From positions 1 through 50,643 of the IMG/VR virus record IMGVR_UViG_3300037156_000076: a stretch of DNA of 50,643 nucleotides; one strand, 5' to 3'. The translations under genes were made by a program, and so were the position numbers. The notes under the pieces are model-generated. The model worked only from the letters and a program-made list of their open reading frames with translations, was not told where the DNA came from and ran no database searches. Shown here piece after piece: positions 5,967 to 50,209 of this stretch (the first letter of the stretch is position 1; the number at the start of each line of letters is the position of its first letter). This DNA comes from a virus.

Positions 5967-6161
5967 ATGCCCGAAGAACCGCGTCCTAACCGCAAGCACA
6001 TCAACCAAATCAAGGTTCGTCTCGATGATGAGTTCGAGGACCTACTTACCTGCGCTGCAAAAATCCACGGCACCAGCAAATCAGCCCTTGCCCGCGAAGT
6101 TCTCAAGTCTTGGCTTGGCGATGTTGTTGCTGATTCTAAGGCGGATAGCCGTGTGGCCTAA
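5967..6161 (+). CDS. Ribbon-helix-helix DNA-binding protein
   Basis: 64 residues with the Arc/CopG pattern: a basic N-terminus, a beta strand HINQIKVRLDD (about 11-21), then helices ending in SKSALAREVLKSWL. GGAG stands eight bases before ATG. It is second after cro, a slot that holds cII in lambda, but the fold is different. Target sites and role are unknown. Confidence 0.75.
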   Translation: MPEEPRPNRKHINQIKVRLDDEFEDLLTCAAKIHGTSKSALAREVLKSWLGDVVADSKADSRVA

Positions 6162-9476: not shown

Positions 9477-9712
9477 AAACCAAGATCGTGCATTTCGTAT
9501 CGCGCTGCTGCGGCCCACAAGAATGCGACTGCCGCCCAAGATGTTTCCAGCGGGAAGGGGATGAGATTCAAGTGACCACCACCGCTAAAAACGTGACCTG
9601 CAAGAACTGCTTGAAAGGTTTGGCGGCTGACAAGAAACGCAAGTCGGCACGCGAATCCGCACAGATGAGATCGCATGAAGCGTGGGCGAATGAAGTTGGG
9701 GGTGGGGTATGA
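9473..9712 (+). CDS. Cysteine-rich small protein
   Basis: 79 residues. Seven cysteines in the first 50 (CCGPQECDC, C, then CKNC) suggest a metal-binding knuckle. The C-terminal half is strongly basic. ATGA overlap on both sides. Unknown function; a DNA- or RNA-binding accessory role is possible. Confidence 0.65.
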   Translation: MKTKIVHFVSRCCGPQECDCRPRCFQREGDEIQVTTTAKNVTCKNCLKGLAADKKRKSARESAQMRSHEAWANEVGGGV

Positions 9713-10014: not shown

Positions 10015-10187
10015 AATCAATTATCGCAGTCATGGCAATTCTCGCTCTGTGCGGATGTGAGAAAGCCCGTAACGACGTTAAAAGCCAGGCCGAGGACTAT
10101 GCCATCTGCACGAAAGCAGGGATGAGGAGCTACCAGAATTCCTACGGTGAAGTTTTGTGCGCGCCACCGGCAGGAGTGAAGTCATGA
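10011..10187 (+). CDS. Small predicted lipoprotein
   Basis: 58 residues. A signal sequence (MKSIIAVMAILALCGC) ends in the lipobox LCGC with the acylated Cys at 16. The mature part is 42 residues with two further cysteines, which could form a disulfide in the periplasm. ATGA overlaps at both ends. It may alter the envelope during infection; this is inference. Confidence 0.65.
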   Translation: MKSIIAVMAILALCGCEKARNDVKSQAEDYAICTKAGMRSYQNSYGEVLCAPPAGVKS

Positions 10188-44917: not shown

Positions 44918-46549
44918 TCAGAGCTGTTTTAGAATTCGTAGGCCGAGCCAGAGAACTACGGTTACGGCCTTGCTGTTGCCGATCGCCTTATAGCGCGGAC
45001 CGTCAGGACATTCACTTGCGGACTTGTTGCGCCAAGGGATTCGCGTGTAATCGTCGGGAAAGCCTTGGAGGCGCTCGCATTCTGTGGGTGTTAATCGGCG
45101 GACGCTGCTGGTAGATACAAGCGCTTCGCTTCCGCCGCCAGCATCTCCAGAAGACGCCCTCAAGCTGGGCAGGCCCTCTCCGTAATCGCTTATCCCTCTT
45201 AGAGCGGCGACAATTGGTTGGCCGCGACCGGTACCGTCCTCACTCCCATCAAAGCCTTCAGCTTTCAGCGTATGCGTAATGTCGCCGGTTATGCATACGG
45301 CGACCTGTCCACCTGCATTTGCATGACTGCCAGCGTGATTCATTGCCCGAAGCGTCGGCGATATCGCCCCGGCGTCTGCGCCATGGTCCTTGCACGAGAA
45401 AGCCAGGACTGCATTTTCCTGCCCGCTATTCCTGCCTAGGGCAAATGCGAGCGAATCACTAACGCCAGGATCTTGCGTACCGTGCACGACGAGCAGTCCG
45501 GCTTCAGCGTCTTGATTGGTTGCGCTACCGGCCGCCTTGCCGTTGGCGTTAAGCGTTCCAGCGATCAAATGTCCAGCCTGAGCCTGATTGTCGTCAGCTC
45601 CGCAAGTCCCTACACCGCAAGCAGTCAGCGCTGATACCGGCTGCACAAAAAAAGTCTCGCTATCGAAGTCGAGTCGCGCATCTTTGGCGGTCAGCGTTCC
45701 GGATCGCTCGATTGAACCGCCGTTACCTGAGCCAAATGCCGGTATTCCACCAAACATGCTGACTGCCGGACCTTCATCGCCCTCGCAATTCATGCAGCCG
45801 TAAGCGCCAAGTTCTTCTCCGAACACTTCCCCGCATCCGCACTGGAGCGCAGGGCCGAAAGGAGCTGTTCCGGTAACGTCCGACCCCTCACCGCGGCGCG
45901 GCGCAGAATCCCGGCGCACGCCTTCTCGCTCAAAAAGTACCTCGACGGGATCGAACCCTCTTCGAGCACTTGCGACAACGAACACACGGCGGCGTCGTTG
46001 GGCCAGGCCGAAATATTGGGCGTCCAAGATCCGCCATGCGATTGTTCTTTTGGGTCCATACACACAACCAGCGTCTGACCACCTTTTCCCTGAAGGCTGC
46101 AGTTCGCAGTCTTCCCCAGCAAGCGCACCAAGAAAGCATCCGAAGGCGTTGCCTTTATCGGAGAGGACGCCGGGGACGTTTTCCCAAACAACAATGGTTT
46201 CATCATCACCGCGGGCGATTCGAACATGGTCAACTGCATCTGCAAGCTCCACATATTTGATGGTTAGGGCGCCGCGAGGATCAAGCATCCCTTGGCGCAT
46301 ACCGGCGACACTGAATGCCTGGCATGGTGTTCCGCCGACTAGCACGTCTGGAGCAGGGATCTTTCCAGTCAGCACCATGGCGGCGAGCTTCGTCATGTCG
46401 CCAAGGTTTGGAATCTTCGGGTAGTGATGGGCAAGTACTGCGCTCGGGAACGGTTCGATTTCGGCAAACCACATCGGCTTCATATCCAGCGGATGCCAAG
46501 CGGTAGTCGCACTTTCTATTCCGGAGCAAATGCTTCCATAGGTCAGCAT
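44918..46549 (-). CDS. DNA (cytosine-5) methyltransferase, Dcm-type
   Basis: 543 residues. Motif I YGSICSGIESATTAW, PCQ (75-77, Cys76) in GGTPCQAFS, ENV at 123-125, QRRRR at 184-188, and late motifs RLTPTECERLQGFP and GNS (524-526). Between motifs VIII and IX is a long region (195-480) with a Cys4 ribbon (237-255) and six repeats of a TLxA-type element. GGAGG is before the ATG. It would protect phage DNA or modify host DNA; specificity unknown. Confidence 0.92.
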   Translation of the reverse strand: MLTYGSICSGIESATTAWHPLDMKPMWFAEIEPFPSAVLAHHYPKIPNLGDMTKLAAMVLTGKIPAPDVLVGGTPCQAFSVAGMRQGMLDPRGALTIKYVELADAVDHVRIARGDDETIVVWENVPGVLSDKGNAFGCFLGALAGEDCELQPSGKRWSDAGCVYGPKRTIAWRILDAQYFGLAQRRRRVFVVASARRGFDPVEVLFEREGVRRDSAPRRGEGSDVTGTAPFGPALQCGCGEVFGEELGAYGCMNCEGDEGPAVSMFGGIPAFGSGNGGSIERSGTLTAKDARLDFDSETFFVQPVSALTACGVGTCGADDNQAQAGHLIAGTLNANGKAAGSATNQDAEAGLLVVHGTQDPGVSDSLAFALGRNSGQENAVLAFSCKDHGADAGAISPTLRAMNHAGSHANAGGQVAVCITGDITHTLKAEGFDGSEDGTGRGQPIVAALRGISDYGEGLPSLRASSGDAGGGSEALVSTSSVRRLTPTECERLQGFPDDYTRIPWRNKSASECPDGPRYKAIGNSKAVTVVLWLGLRILKQL

Positions 46550-47070
46550 GAGCCCTCCATGTATGCGAGCACTCGCCGCATCTCTTCAATATTTGCGTCT
46601 GATTTCAGGCGGTTTGCCCGAAACGATATGACGCGTATGTTCGTCTTTACGTATCCGAGAGCAGGAATGAAGCGGTCCAGCGACGGAGTGTTATTGCGCG
46701 CACCGCCCTGCGCCATGGGGATTCCGAGAACTGGACATACGTCAGGAACAAATATGTCGTCTGGCTCAATCTCGAATGGCAGAGAAAGTGCGATCGCGCG
46801 CTTCCTAGCGTCATAAAACATCGTGTATTGAGTCGTTTTTGATTTTCCGTGCGTCCGGTAAAGCCCTCCCGCTCGATCACGCCGCAGGCACCCACAGCTT
46901 CTGGTAGAGCCGCCCTTTAGGCGCGCCGCAGGAAGTGTGACCACGGACCCACATTCGCACCTACAGACCCAGCTAGGCTTTCCACCTCCTTGAGGTCGCG
47001 AGGCTCCACGATGAAGCGCGGTAAGCCTGCCGAAAACCATTTCACTTATATCCTCAGCTGGCCTTCCCAT
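46543..47070 (-). CDS. HNH-type endonuclease with N-terminal zinc knuckle
   Basis: 175 residues. Cys36/38/40 and Cys59/61 form a zinc knuckle of the kind seen in phage HNH/AP2 endonucleases. The C-terminal half has CPVLGIPM (112-119), SLDRFIPALGY (130-140) and N..VISFRANRLKSDA, the usual HNH/endonuclease VII-like core. TTGGAGG precedes the ATG. It ends seven bases inside the methyltransferase start. It may be a mobile homing-type nuclease. Confidence 0.8.
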   Translation of the reverse strand: MGRPAEDISEMVFGRLTALHRGASRPQGGGKPSWVCRCECGSVVTLPAARLKGGSTRSCGCLRRDRAGGLYRTHGKSKTTQYTMFYDARKRAIALSLPFEIEPDDIFVPDVCPVLGIPMAQGGARNNTPSLDRFIPALGYVKTNIRVISFRANRLKSDANIEEMRRVLAYMEGSC

Positions 47071-47089
47071 TCGGCGCCTCCAATGACGA

Positions 47090-47119
47090 GCCGCTGCATA
47101 TTGAGCCGTAGGTGGTCAT
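47090..47119 (-). pseudogene. Orphan start of a second methyltransferase
   Basis: A frame from ATG 47119 reads MTTYGSICSG for ten codons, then SSLEAPNGKAS and stop. Nine of these ten residues equal the opening of the intact methyltransferase (MLTYGSICSG), but with different codons (18 of 30 bases identical). GGAAA lies before the ATG. It appears to be the beheaded first exon-like stub of a related gene, cut off by the HNH gene. Confidence 0.7.
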
Positions 47120-47177
47120 ATTGATTTCCAGTCAGGCGCCGCCCTCCAATGACTGGATGCGACAAAAATAGGGGGTG

Positions 47178-47693
47178 TTATTCGTTGCAGATGCGAAGAG
47201 TCTTGCGCCGGAAGTCGGCATCAAGCCGTCTGGCCATGTGCTCAGGCATCACATATGGGGTGTGTGGTGGCATTGCCAGAAAGGGTAGGGCGCGGTCCTT
47301 TCCAGCATCATGTAGCGCATGAATGACCAGTCGCATAGCTGCGCTTTGGTCCTGCGCGCCAGTCCACTCAACCAGAGCTGACAGCGCCTCGCACGTTCCA
47401 GATCTAGCCCAAAAGCGGATCATCTCGCTACCCATGATTGGCGACACGTTTTCGCCATATTCCAAACTGTGCCGCGAACCAATAAGCCGAATAACCCCGC
47501 CCCGGCCAAGACCCTGAACGTGATGAATCATCCAGGTGAGCGCCTCGCCCTGCTCTTTGATTCCGGTCCACCTCATCAGGTCGGACAGCATCTTCTTGGT
47601 CGTAGCGCTGACCGTGTGGCGCAATTCCAGCTCACCGCACTCTTGGCGCTTGAGTGCAGTCTTAGCTGACCGAGCCTTTCCTTCTACTGCCAT
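47178..47693 (-). CDS. Protein with internally duplicated helical module
   Basis: 171 residues. LSDLMRWTGIKEQGEALTWMIHHVQGLG (about 37-64) and LSALVEWTGAQDQSAAMRLVIHALHDAG (about 103-130) align without gaps, so the protein is a tandem duplication of a ribbon-helix-helix-like or helical unit. AGGAGG is five bases before the ATG. A DNA-binding regulator is plausible. Confidence 0.65.
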   Translation of the reverse strand: MAVEGKARSAKTALKRQECGELELRHTVSATTKKMLSDLMRWTGIKEQGEALTWMIHHVQGLGRGGVIRLIGSRHSLEYGENVSPIMGSEMIRFWARSGTCEALSALVEWTGAQDQSAAMRLVIHALHDAGKDRALPFLAMPPHTPYVMPEHMARRLDADFRRKTLRICNE

Positions 47694-49537: not shown

Positions 49538-50185
49538 CTAGAACAGGATATCCTGAGAATGGTCATCAGGTACCGGGCCATAGTCGTTGTTGTCGCTATG
49601 ATGCGACTGGCCGCCCTTAGGGCGCTTGTCGACAATTGGTTTGCGAATGATAGCCTCCAGCATTTTTTCCAGCTTGACCGGCTCCCTGCACCGCTCTCGG
49701 TCAAGAACCTCGGAGGCCGTTTTCTCGCTTGACGCTTCGAATGGCGCGTACAAAGTTGGTCGCGGATCACCCTTTTCGCTGTTTTTCTCGATCTCCATCT
49801 GGATCAAGATGCCGATCGGCTTGTTCATCAGTTCGGGAAAGCCTGGAGCCTGAGTCTTTACTCGCTGCCCGGCGTCCTTGTCCCACTTCTCAAAGCTGAT
49901 TTGAGATGGAGCTGCAACATCATTAAGTCGTAGGCAAGCCATGATTGCGTTCAAGAGCGAATGCCCGCCATCATTTCTGGTTCCGTGCTGATAGCTGAGG
50001 TTGATATAGAACTGAGCCTCTGCTCCGTCACCGCTTTTGAAAGTCAGGCCAATCCCTGTTGACCCAGTGGACTGTTTGTCCATGTACTCAGCGCGCACGA
50101 AGGTTCCGATGTACTTCCCTTCGCGATCAATGTAAGCGGACTTGTTGTCTGCGGCGCGAGCTGCGCCCTGGTCGAGTTTGAACAT
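49538..50185 (-). CDS. DUF669-like / ssDNA-binding recombination protein
   Basis: 215 residues from ATG 50185 (GGAG upstream). The N-terminal 110 residues (MFKLDQGAARAADNKSAYIDREGKYIG, GIGLTFKSGDGAEAQFYINLSYQHG) match the DUF669 outline, a partner of the ATPase. The tail is acidic and Ser/His-rich, ending DDHSQDILF, like ssDNA-binding protein tails. ssDNA binding is inferred. Confidence 0.7.
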   Translation of the reverse strand: MFKLDQGAARAADNKSAYIDREGKYIGTFVRAEYMDKQSTGSTGIGLTFKSGDGAEAQFYINLSYQHGTRNDGGHSLLNAIMACLRLNDVAAPSQISFEKWDKDAGQRVKTQAPGFPELMNKPIGILIQMEIEKNSEKGDPRPTLYAPFEASSEKTASEVLDRERCREPVKLEKMLEAIIRKPIVDKRPKGGQSHHSDNNDYGPVPDDHSQDILF

Positions 50186-50209
50186 TTGATGCTCCGTTGA
50201 GTGCCGCAA

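Follow-up and report, generated by a model that had tools for sequence, protein, structure and literature searches.

How a phage genome could come to carry two beginnings of one methyltransferase gene, with a nuclease gene between them, is the question raised by this locus. Homing endonuclease genes are usually described in introns, in inteins or between genes. The locus bears on how a selfish nuclease may spread a methyltransferase (MTase) gene and remake its 5' end. We consider it fairly probable that a free-standing homing endonuclease gene travels here together with a replacement 5' end of its target, an orphan Dcm-type MTase. The sequence is best read as a replacement, in which the nuclease and its own MTase 5' end would have displaced the resident 5' end and left the resident's first ten codons behind. 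Such a mode of replacement keeps the target gene whole without splicing.

The window, meaning the whole stretch of DNA analysed, is a virus record of 50643 bases, and all three ORFs of interest are read on its minus strand. The first opens at ATG 47119 with the ten codons MTTYGSICSG (47119-47090), the start of a Dcm-type MTase and putatively the displaced resident allele. After this stub the frame continues with SSLEAPNGKAS and a stop, which adds 11 codons and gives an ORF of 21 codons (47054..47119) that overlaps the nuclease start at 47070. The nuclease of 175 aa (46543..47070) consists of an N-terminal domain (phrog_374) and a C-terminal core (phrog_3322). Its stop overlaps the start of the third ORF by 7 nt (ATGCTGA, 46543..46549). 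This third ORF is a complete Dcm-type C5 DNA methyltransferase of 543 aa (44918..46549; PF00145, E 1.7e-33) opening at 46549 with MLTYGSICSG. The stub ORF, the nuclease and the MTase thus form a chain of three overlapping ORFs, along which translation is probably coupled. The next best match to the start motif in the six frames of the window reaches 5/10 residues, and ten first-order Markov re-samplings gave 6/10 at best. Stub and intact start agree in 9/10, hence a chance likeness is excluded. The preliminary description had already recognized the near-identical opening, its spelling with different codons and the overlap of the nuclease end with the second MTase start, and all of these observations hold. 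It was also right that the stub breaks off after ten codons, although not directly into the nuclease gene, since 19 nt lie between 47090 and ATG 47070.

These 19 nt form the short leader of the nuclease, TCGTCATTGGAGGCGCCGA (47071..47089, minus strand), and the stub has a leader of its own, GTCATTGGAGGGCGGCGCCTGACTGGAAATCAAT (47120..47153, minus strand), a recurring leader module of related phages. The two share the 11-mer GTCATTGGAGG, found once ahead of the stub (47153-47143) and once ahead of the nuclease (47087-47077). A ribosome-type site had been thought to be repeated at both MTase starts, which is incorrect, as upstream of the intact MTase ATGGAGGGCTC is found within the nuclease ORF instead of GTCATTGGAGG. 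Shuffling around a fixed GGAGG puts the chance of the 11-bp repeat at about 0.0008. The repeat may have helped the left join, or may represent two copies of one leader module. Upstream of the stub lies a gene of 171 aa (phrog_5439; 47178..47693, minus strand), a relative of which directly precedes an uninterrupted MTase in another phage locus (L027). Two genes beyond the MTase lies a phage integrase gene (PF00589; 43569-44471), and on the upstream side of the cassette an SSB-like protein is encoded (phrog_743; 49538-50209), which places the cassette in the early region of a phage that is probably temperate. A sister contig (L157, positions 6055-6129) joins the window ends 1 and 50643 across 75 bases absent from the window, and the phage map is thus circular or circularly permuted.

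Relatives of the MTase are uninterrupted at this place. A protein search of viral contigs yielded at least 596 confirmed loci, of which the best 80 were used. The start could be mapped in 78 of these, with L051 and L085 omitted for unmatched first residues. All 78 mappable starts are uninterrupted, so that the contiguous gene anticipated in the preliminary description does exist in relatives. A second copy of the start motif was sought in the 80 loci, some with short upstream DNA, and only one unrelated match (L077) was found. Among the same 80 loci the window nuclease matches only L087, at the N-terminal domain. The nuclease ORF therefore adjoins a conserved gene and is missing at the same place in relatives, as is the case for free-standing homing endonucleases.

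Comparison with these relatives indicates that the two starts in the window differ in origin. The stub and the intact start share 62% identity in codons 3-10, with two serine codon-class switches between them. Over these codons most relatives (66/78) resemble the stub more than the window's own intact gene does. Among the 78 relatives, L066 comes nearest to the stub (96%) and L055 to the intact start (83%). Of the 3003 pairs of relatives, 32% differ from each other by as much as stub and intact start or more, hence the two behave as unrelated alleles and not as a recent duplication. The codon comparison supports the view that the intact start is a different allele and not a copy of the stub. 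How far the unusual sequence extends was assessed with 45 relatives (from 50 with at least 75% identity, dereplicated), which together with the window make 46 sequences. When each sequence is compared with its five nearest relatives, the window has the lowest identity of all 46 in codons 3-11, 12-25 and 26-50, whereas its values for codons 126-150, 151-175 and 176-205 are unremarkable (ranks 8, 8 and 12 of 46). By mean identity the window is also lowest of the 46 in codons 101-125, and the deviant part is without a clean edge. These ranks support a deviant 5' part of the intact MTase with no breakpoint located. We propose that codons 1-50 (46400..46549, minus strand) arrived with the nuclease.

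The surroundings of the stub were compared with the same loci. In L027, a relative of the window's upstream gene (54% over 84 residues) directly precedes the MTase, and the leader and start align to the stub region with 65% over 173 columns (E 7e-14). A second locus, L048, aligns to the stub region with 76% over 71 columns, and the stub leader is thus common to two uninterrupted loci among the 80. The leader, written as GGAGGGCGGCGCCTGACTGG(AGATAATCC)ATG, was found in at least 119 viral stretches, and in the 80 that were fetched it stands ahead of many unrelated genes. The L027 leader was consequently rejected as specific proof of homology. The leader by itself proves little, and the argument therefore rests on the stub codons. 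This recurring leader looks like a linker for gene exchange. The nuclease leader word TCATTGGAGGCGCCGNATG was found in 0 stretches of other phages, and a second word, GTCATTGGAGGCGCC, in 21 stretches that appear to be chance matches. A class draw of 274 genomes contained the leader in 0/274 and weak MTase matches only (54/274 at E <=0.001, best identity 42% among the loci shown), and this draw is uninformative about the hosts of these phages.

An ordinary insertion after codon 10 would likewise leave codons 1-10 on both sides of the nuclease, if a duplication had re-established the ten codons downstream and the two copies had since drifted apart. We regard this course as unlikely. The two copies would have diverged to 62% identity over codons 3-10, including the two serine switches between codon classes, yet the stub is identical in two strains that are about 5% diverged upstream. 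The greater closeness of 66 of the 78 relatives to the stub than to the intact copy also argues against duplication, as does a nuclease joined to an MTase start without any stub in another phage (L367, see below).

The nuclease itself belongs to a family of phage endonucleases. The N-terminal domain has the pattern C.C..G/SCGC and the C-terminal core the pattern DI..P..CP..G..SLDR..GY..N..S..AN..K. Matches among PHROGs are to an endonuclease (7e-30), to an HNH endonuclease through the N-terminal domain (2e-17) and, remotely, to endonuclease VII (6e-13). Sequence searches found nothing in Pfam up to E 10 or in the PDB up to E 1. A family scan with an eight-member alignment retained the best 80 loci, 54 of which were aligned with the window. 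Across these 55 members the residues C112, L131, D132, G139, Y140, N144, S149, A152, N153 and K156 are invariant, and no His column is conserved. The family therefore lacks the catalytic His of classical HNH and DHHRN enzymes. An AlphaFold2 model of the nuclease (pLDDT 86) most resembles PacI (Z 6.5), EcoKMcrA (4.8) and a Geobacter (Gme) HNH nicking enzyme (4.7), all below the confidence level of the tool, and a PDB Foldseek search with the model gave no match at E <=0.001. A viral fold library gave 116 matches at E <=0.001, mostly to uncharacterized phage proteins and putative HNH or AP2 proteins. The label HNH, given to the gene in the preliminary description, is thus approximate, as the weak resemblance of the fold model to HNH enzymes speaks for it and the missing conserved His in the family core against it. 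Close relatives of the nuclease occur in viral contigs (24 loci) and in genome contigs (20 loci), and the majority of these loci match in the N-terminal part. The fetched DNA of the 24 viral loci contained no match to the window MTase.

Of the 71 available upstream neighbours of family members, 62 were scanned, with nine presumed near-duplicates omitted, and these include psbA in 12/62, ribonucleotide reductase (RNR) in 4 and a clamp loader in 4, plus polymerase and helicase families. Downstream neighbours, scanned for 61 of 66, comprise polymerase families with 2-3 cases each, RNR with 2 and an MTase with 1. Among named phages, a family gene follows the DNA polymerase (jiawei, S2B), RNR (NootNoot) or photosystem II D2 (S-SKS1), and in Roseobacter phage CRP-7 a family member sits between two RNR gene parts (L362:1115-3733). 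No such target gene is annotated beside the family member in ventosus, P19250A or Kabachok. Judged by gene order, the commoner surroundings of the family are those of homing endonucleases.

The joining of such a nuclease to an MTase start is not confined to the window. The best match of the family scan, L367, encodes a nuclease with 42% identity over almost its full length; a Dcm-type MTase (49% over 186 residues) follows immediately downstream, and the two ORFs share 11 nt. No MTase-like stub is found upstream of the L367 nuclease, which is preceded by a 93-aa ORF unmatched elsewhere in the fetched loci. In L087 (3003-4004), the same N-terminal domain phrog_374 (E 7e-16) is combined with a true HNH end, and the gene of this nuclease overlaps the beginning of a Dcm-type MTase by TGATG and has no stub. 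Nuclease and MTase start are thus a recurring pair, of which the window is the case retaining the resident start. Among the 80 loci, only L367 clearly repeats the placement of a member of this nuclease family on an MTase start, and the nucleases of the window and L367 are not resolved as a clade in the tree. Two Caulobacter phages carry a family member one gene upstream of an MTase. A joint query of nuclease and MTase start was covered to 80% by no phage or plasmid record; a match on a Pantoea plasmid was rejected as an extension into another gene. At the presumed site, L367 has the codons AGC GGC ATT GAG GCC, which are the common ones, hence sequence resistance is not general in nuclease-MTase pairs. 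The idea of intronless homing that brought a nuclease and a resistant second allele, put forward in the preliminary description, therefore survives in part. The second start as a different allele, the homing-type surroundings and the pairs without a stub agree with it, and recoding as resistance does not extend to such pairs in general.

The recurrent pairing could also be taken for a type II restriction-modification system, in which nuclease and C5 methyltransferase act as a pair that replaced an orphan MTase. The nuclease and MTase ORFs overlap in the window, in L367 and in L087, the best fold match is the restriction enzyme PacI, and the DHHRN relative Hpy99I is a restriction enzyme beside a methylase according to the part of PMC6083498 available. 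We nevertheless find a restriction-modification pair quite improbable. An MTase is present in only 1 of the 61 scanned downstream neighbours of the nuclease family, which shows no regular pairing, and most family members adjoin psbA, polymerase or RNR genes. Seen from the MTase side, 57 scanned upstream neighbours of related MTases included, among the 25 commonest families listed, the nuclease of L087, which has a different catalytic domain at the same place.

The junction of stub and nuclease is seen in one record only, as no other contig with the junction was found. The contig L157 from metagenome 3300050132 differs from the window by 1 mismatch in 9608 aligned bases and stops (at its position 9683) precisely where codon 10 of the stub ends, at 47090. 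L181, from a different strain with 94.8% identity over 788 bases, terminates at 47090 too (at its position 10031). The stub recurs in both contigs with the same letters, and its conservation in similar genomes, on which the earlier interpretation had depended, is supported by these two sister contigs. In the two contigs the last 127 and the first 127 bases are identical, and 127 is a usual assembler k-mer length. The assembly graph therefore branches or merges at the k-mer ending at the junction. Such branching is compatible with strains that differ in the left flank but have the cassette in common, or with the coexistence of occupied and empty sites. A search with one other protein kept 80 loci, and these did not include the remainder of the phage from the assembly that contains L157 and L181.

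The same branching leaves room for an artefact, in which a graph vertex would have linked the stub of one phage strain with a nuclease and MTase that belong to a different one. The shared end of the two contigs and the absence of the junction from every other visible contig are what such a false join would produce. However, the longest word shared near the junction has 11 bases, with no repeat of assembly length, runs of N are absent, and the three ORFs fit into one another. L367 independently shows a nuclease attached to an MTase start, and we think a misassembly has little likelihood. Phage nucleases are often intron-borne and the insertion point falls within a conserved motif, but a group I intron or intein-like element with the stub spliced to the downstream gene is extremely improbable, given no Rfam match up to E 1 in 46300-47400 and hence no known intron RNA, a nuclease ORF that fills 528 of the 540 nt separating the stub from the second start, and a downstream repeat of codons 1-10 that makes splicing unnecessary.

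We thus return to the replacement of the resident 5' end by a nuclease and its own MTase 5' end. The event would start with the nuclease cutting a resident, uninterrupted MTase gene near codon 10/11, at TGCAGCGGC|ATCGAGGC. The break would then be repaired from a donor carrying nuclease and MTase. The right join would form via homology in the MTase body, making the intact gene a chimera of the donor 5' end and an ordinary remainder. The left join would form at the cut itself, where the recipient's first ten codons would stay as the stub. The left-over start of the displaced allele would thereby mark the likely cut site to the base. We infer the extent of the donor tract, as well as translational coupling. 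The altered spelling around codons 3-50 of the intact MTase may prevent recutting, and leader and stub could act as the left homology arm in a next round. Taken together, such steps would describe a natural phage home-and-rescue element, consisting of a nuclease and a recoded, cut-resistant 5' end, whose homing cuts at codon 10/11 and leaves the next homology arm. We put this fuller version forward only tentatively.

Several known systems share parts of this arrangement, as far as the portions of the publications available describe them. The Seg and Mob enzymes of T4-like phages likewise are free-standing beside a conserved gene, with overlapping ORFs and no own promoter seen (PMC2988022). Their cut sites, however, are hundreds or thousands of bases away from where the nuclease gene is inserted, and the available account of T4 intronless homing describes neither a recoded second start nor a left-over stub. 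The mobE insertion in Aeh1 splits nrdA into pieces, whereas the MTase of the window is restored (PMC2988022). In actinophages (the ShiLan domain, Pacc40, Tiff81 and Sashimi; PMC11855218), nuclease genes likewise are inserted within methylase genes or stand immediately before them. Directly upstream of gp71, Tiff81 encodes a 28% relative of the window nuclease, gp70, which is very probably the Tiff81 nuclease that PMC11855218 describes under a draft number. The actinophage insertions are read through in frame or lie wholly upstream, though, and the available part of that source describes no displaced start or recoded copy. F-CphI (DHHRN, endonuclease VII motif; PMC6083498) has psbA as its neighbour, as seen for 12/62 scanned upstream neighbours in the window nuclease family. 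The window family lacks the DHHRN histidines, and the self-protection of F-CphI depends on its intron (PMC6083498). Nuclease genes have also been reported at recombination boundaries (PMC10448857). A phage case of a displaced start together with a recoded allele was not found in the portions of the open-licence literature available. Synthetic cleave-and-rescue and home-and-rescue drives also link a nuclease to a recoded rescue copy of its target, but these are engineered Cas9 systems and the window would be a natural arrangement.

The sole close parallel found is the WHO/HO lineage of yeasts. WHO elements target FBA1 in Torulaspora and Lachancea (PMC7282813, available in part). After homing, their nuclease gene has the full-length target on one side and a remnant of the recipient's displaced end on the other, just as stub, nuclease and intact MTase follow each other here. 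The full-length WHO target is chimeric with a donor end; the MTase may be comparable, with deviant codons 3-50 and ordinary codons 126-205, but its codons 101-125 deviate too and there is no clean breakpoint. The WHO nuclease carries a zinc-finger-like domain, a further likeness to the window nuclease. In WHO the 3' end is exchanged and 3' remnants of about 400 bp stay behind, whereas in the window it would be the 5' end, with a stub of 30 bp. The WHO protein is intein-like, of the LAGLIDADG kind, and the window nuclease matches phage endonuclease PHROGs and, weakly, an HNH-like fold. Allele-specific cutting has been demonstrated for WHO6 (PMC7282813), whereas the window is known from its sequence alone. 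By analogy, the window nuclease would at most work like WHO, without common family descent. With the yeast lineage as the only close parallel, the same solution may have arisen twice. If the home-and-rescue version is true, the phage element would be a bacteriophage 5'-end mirror of yeast WHO, independently invented with an unrelated nuclease.
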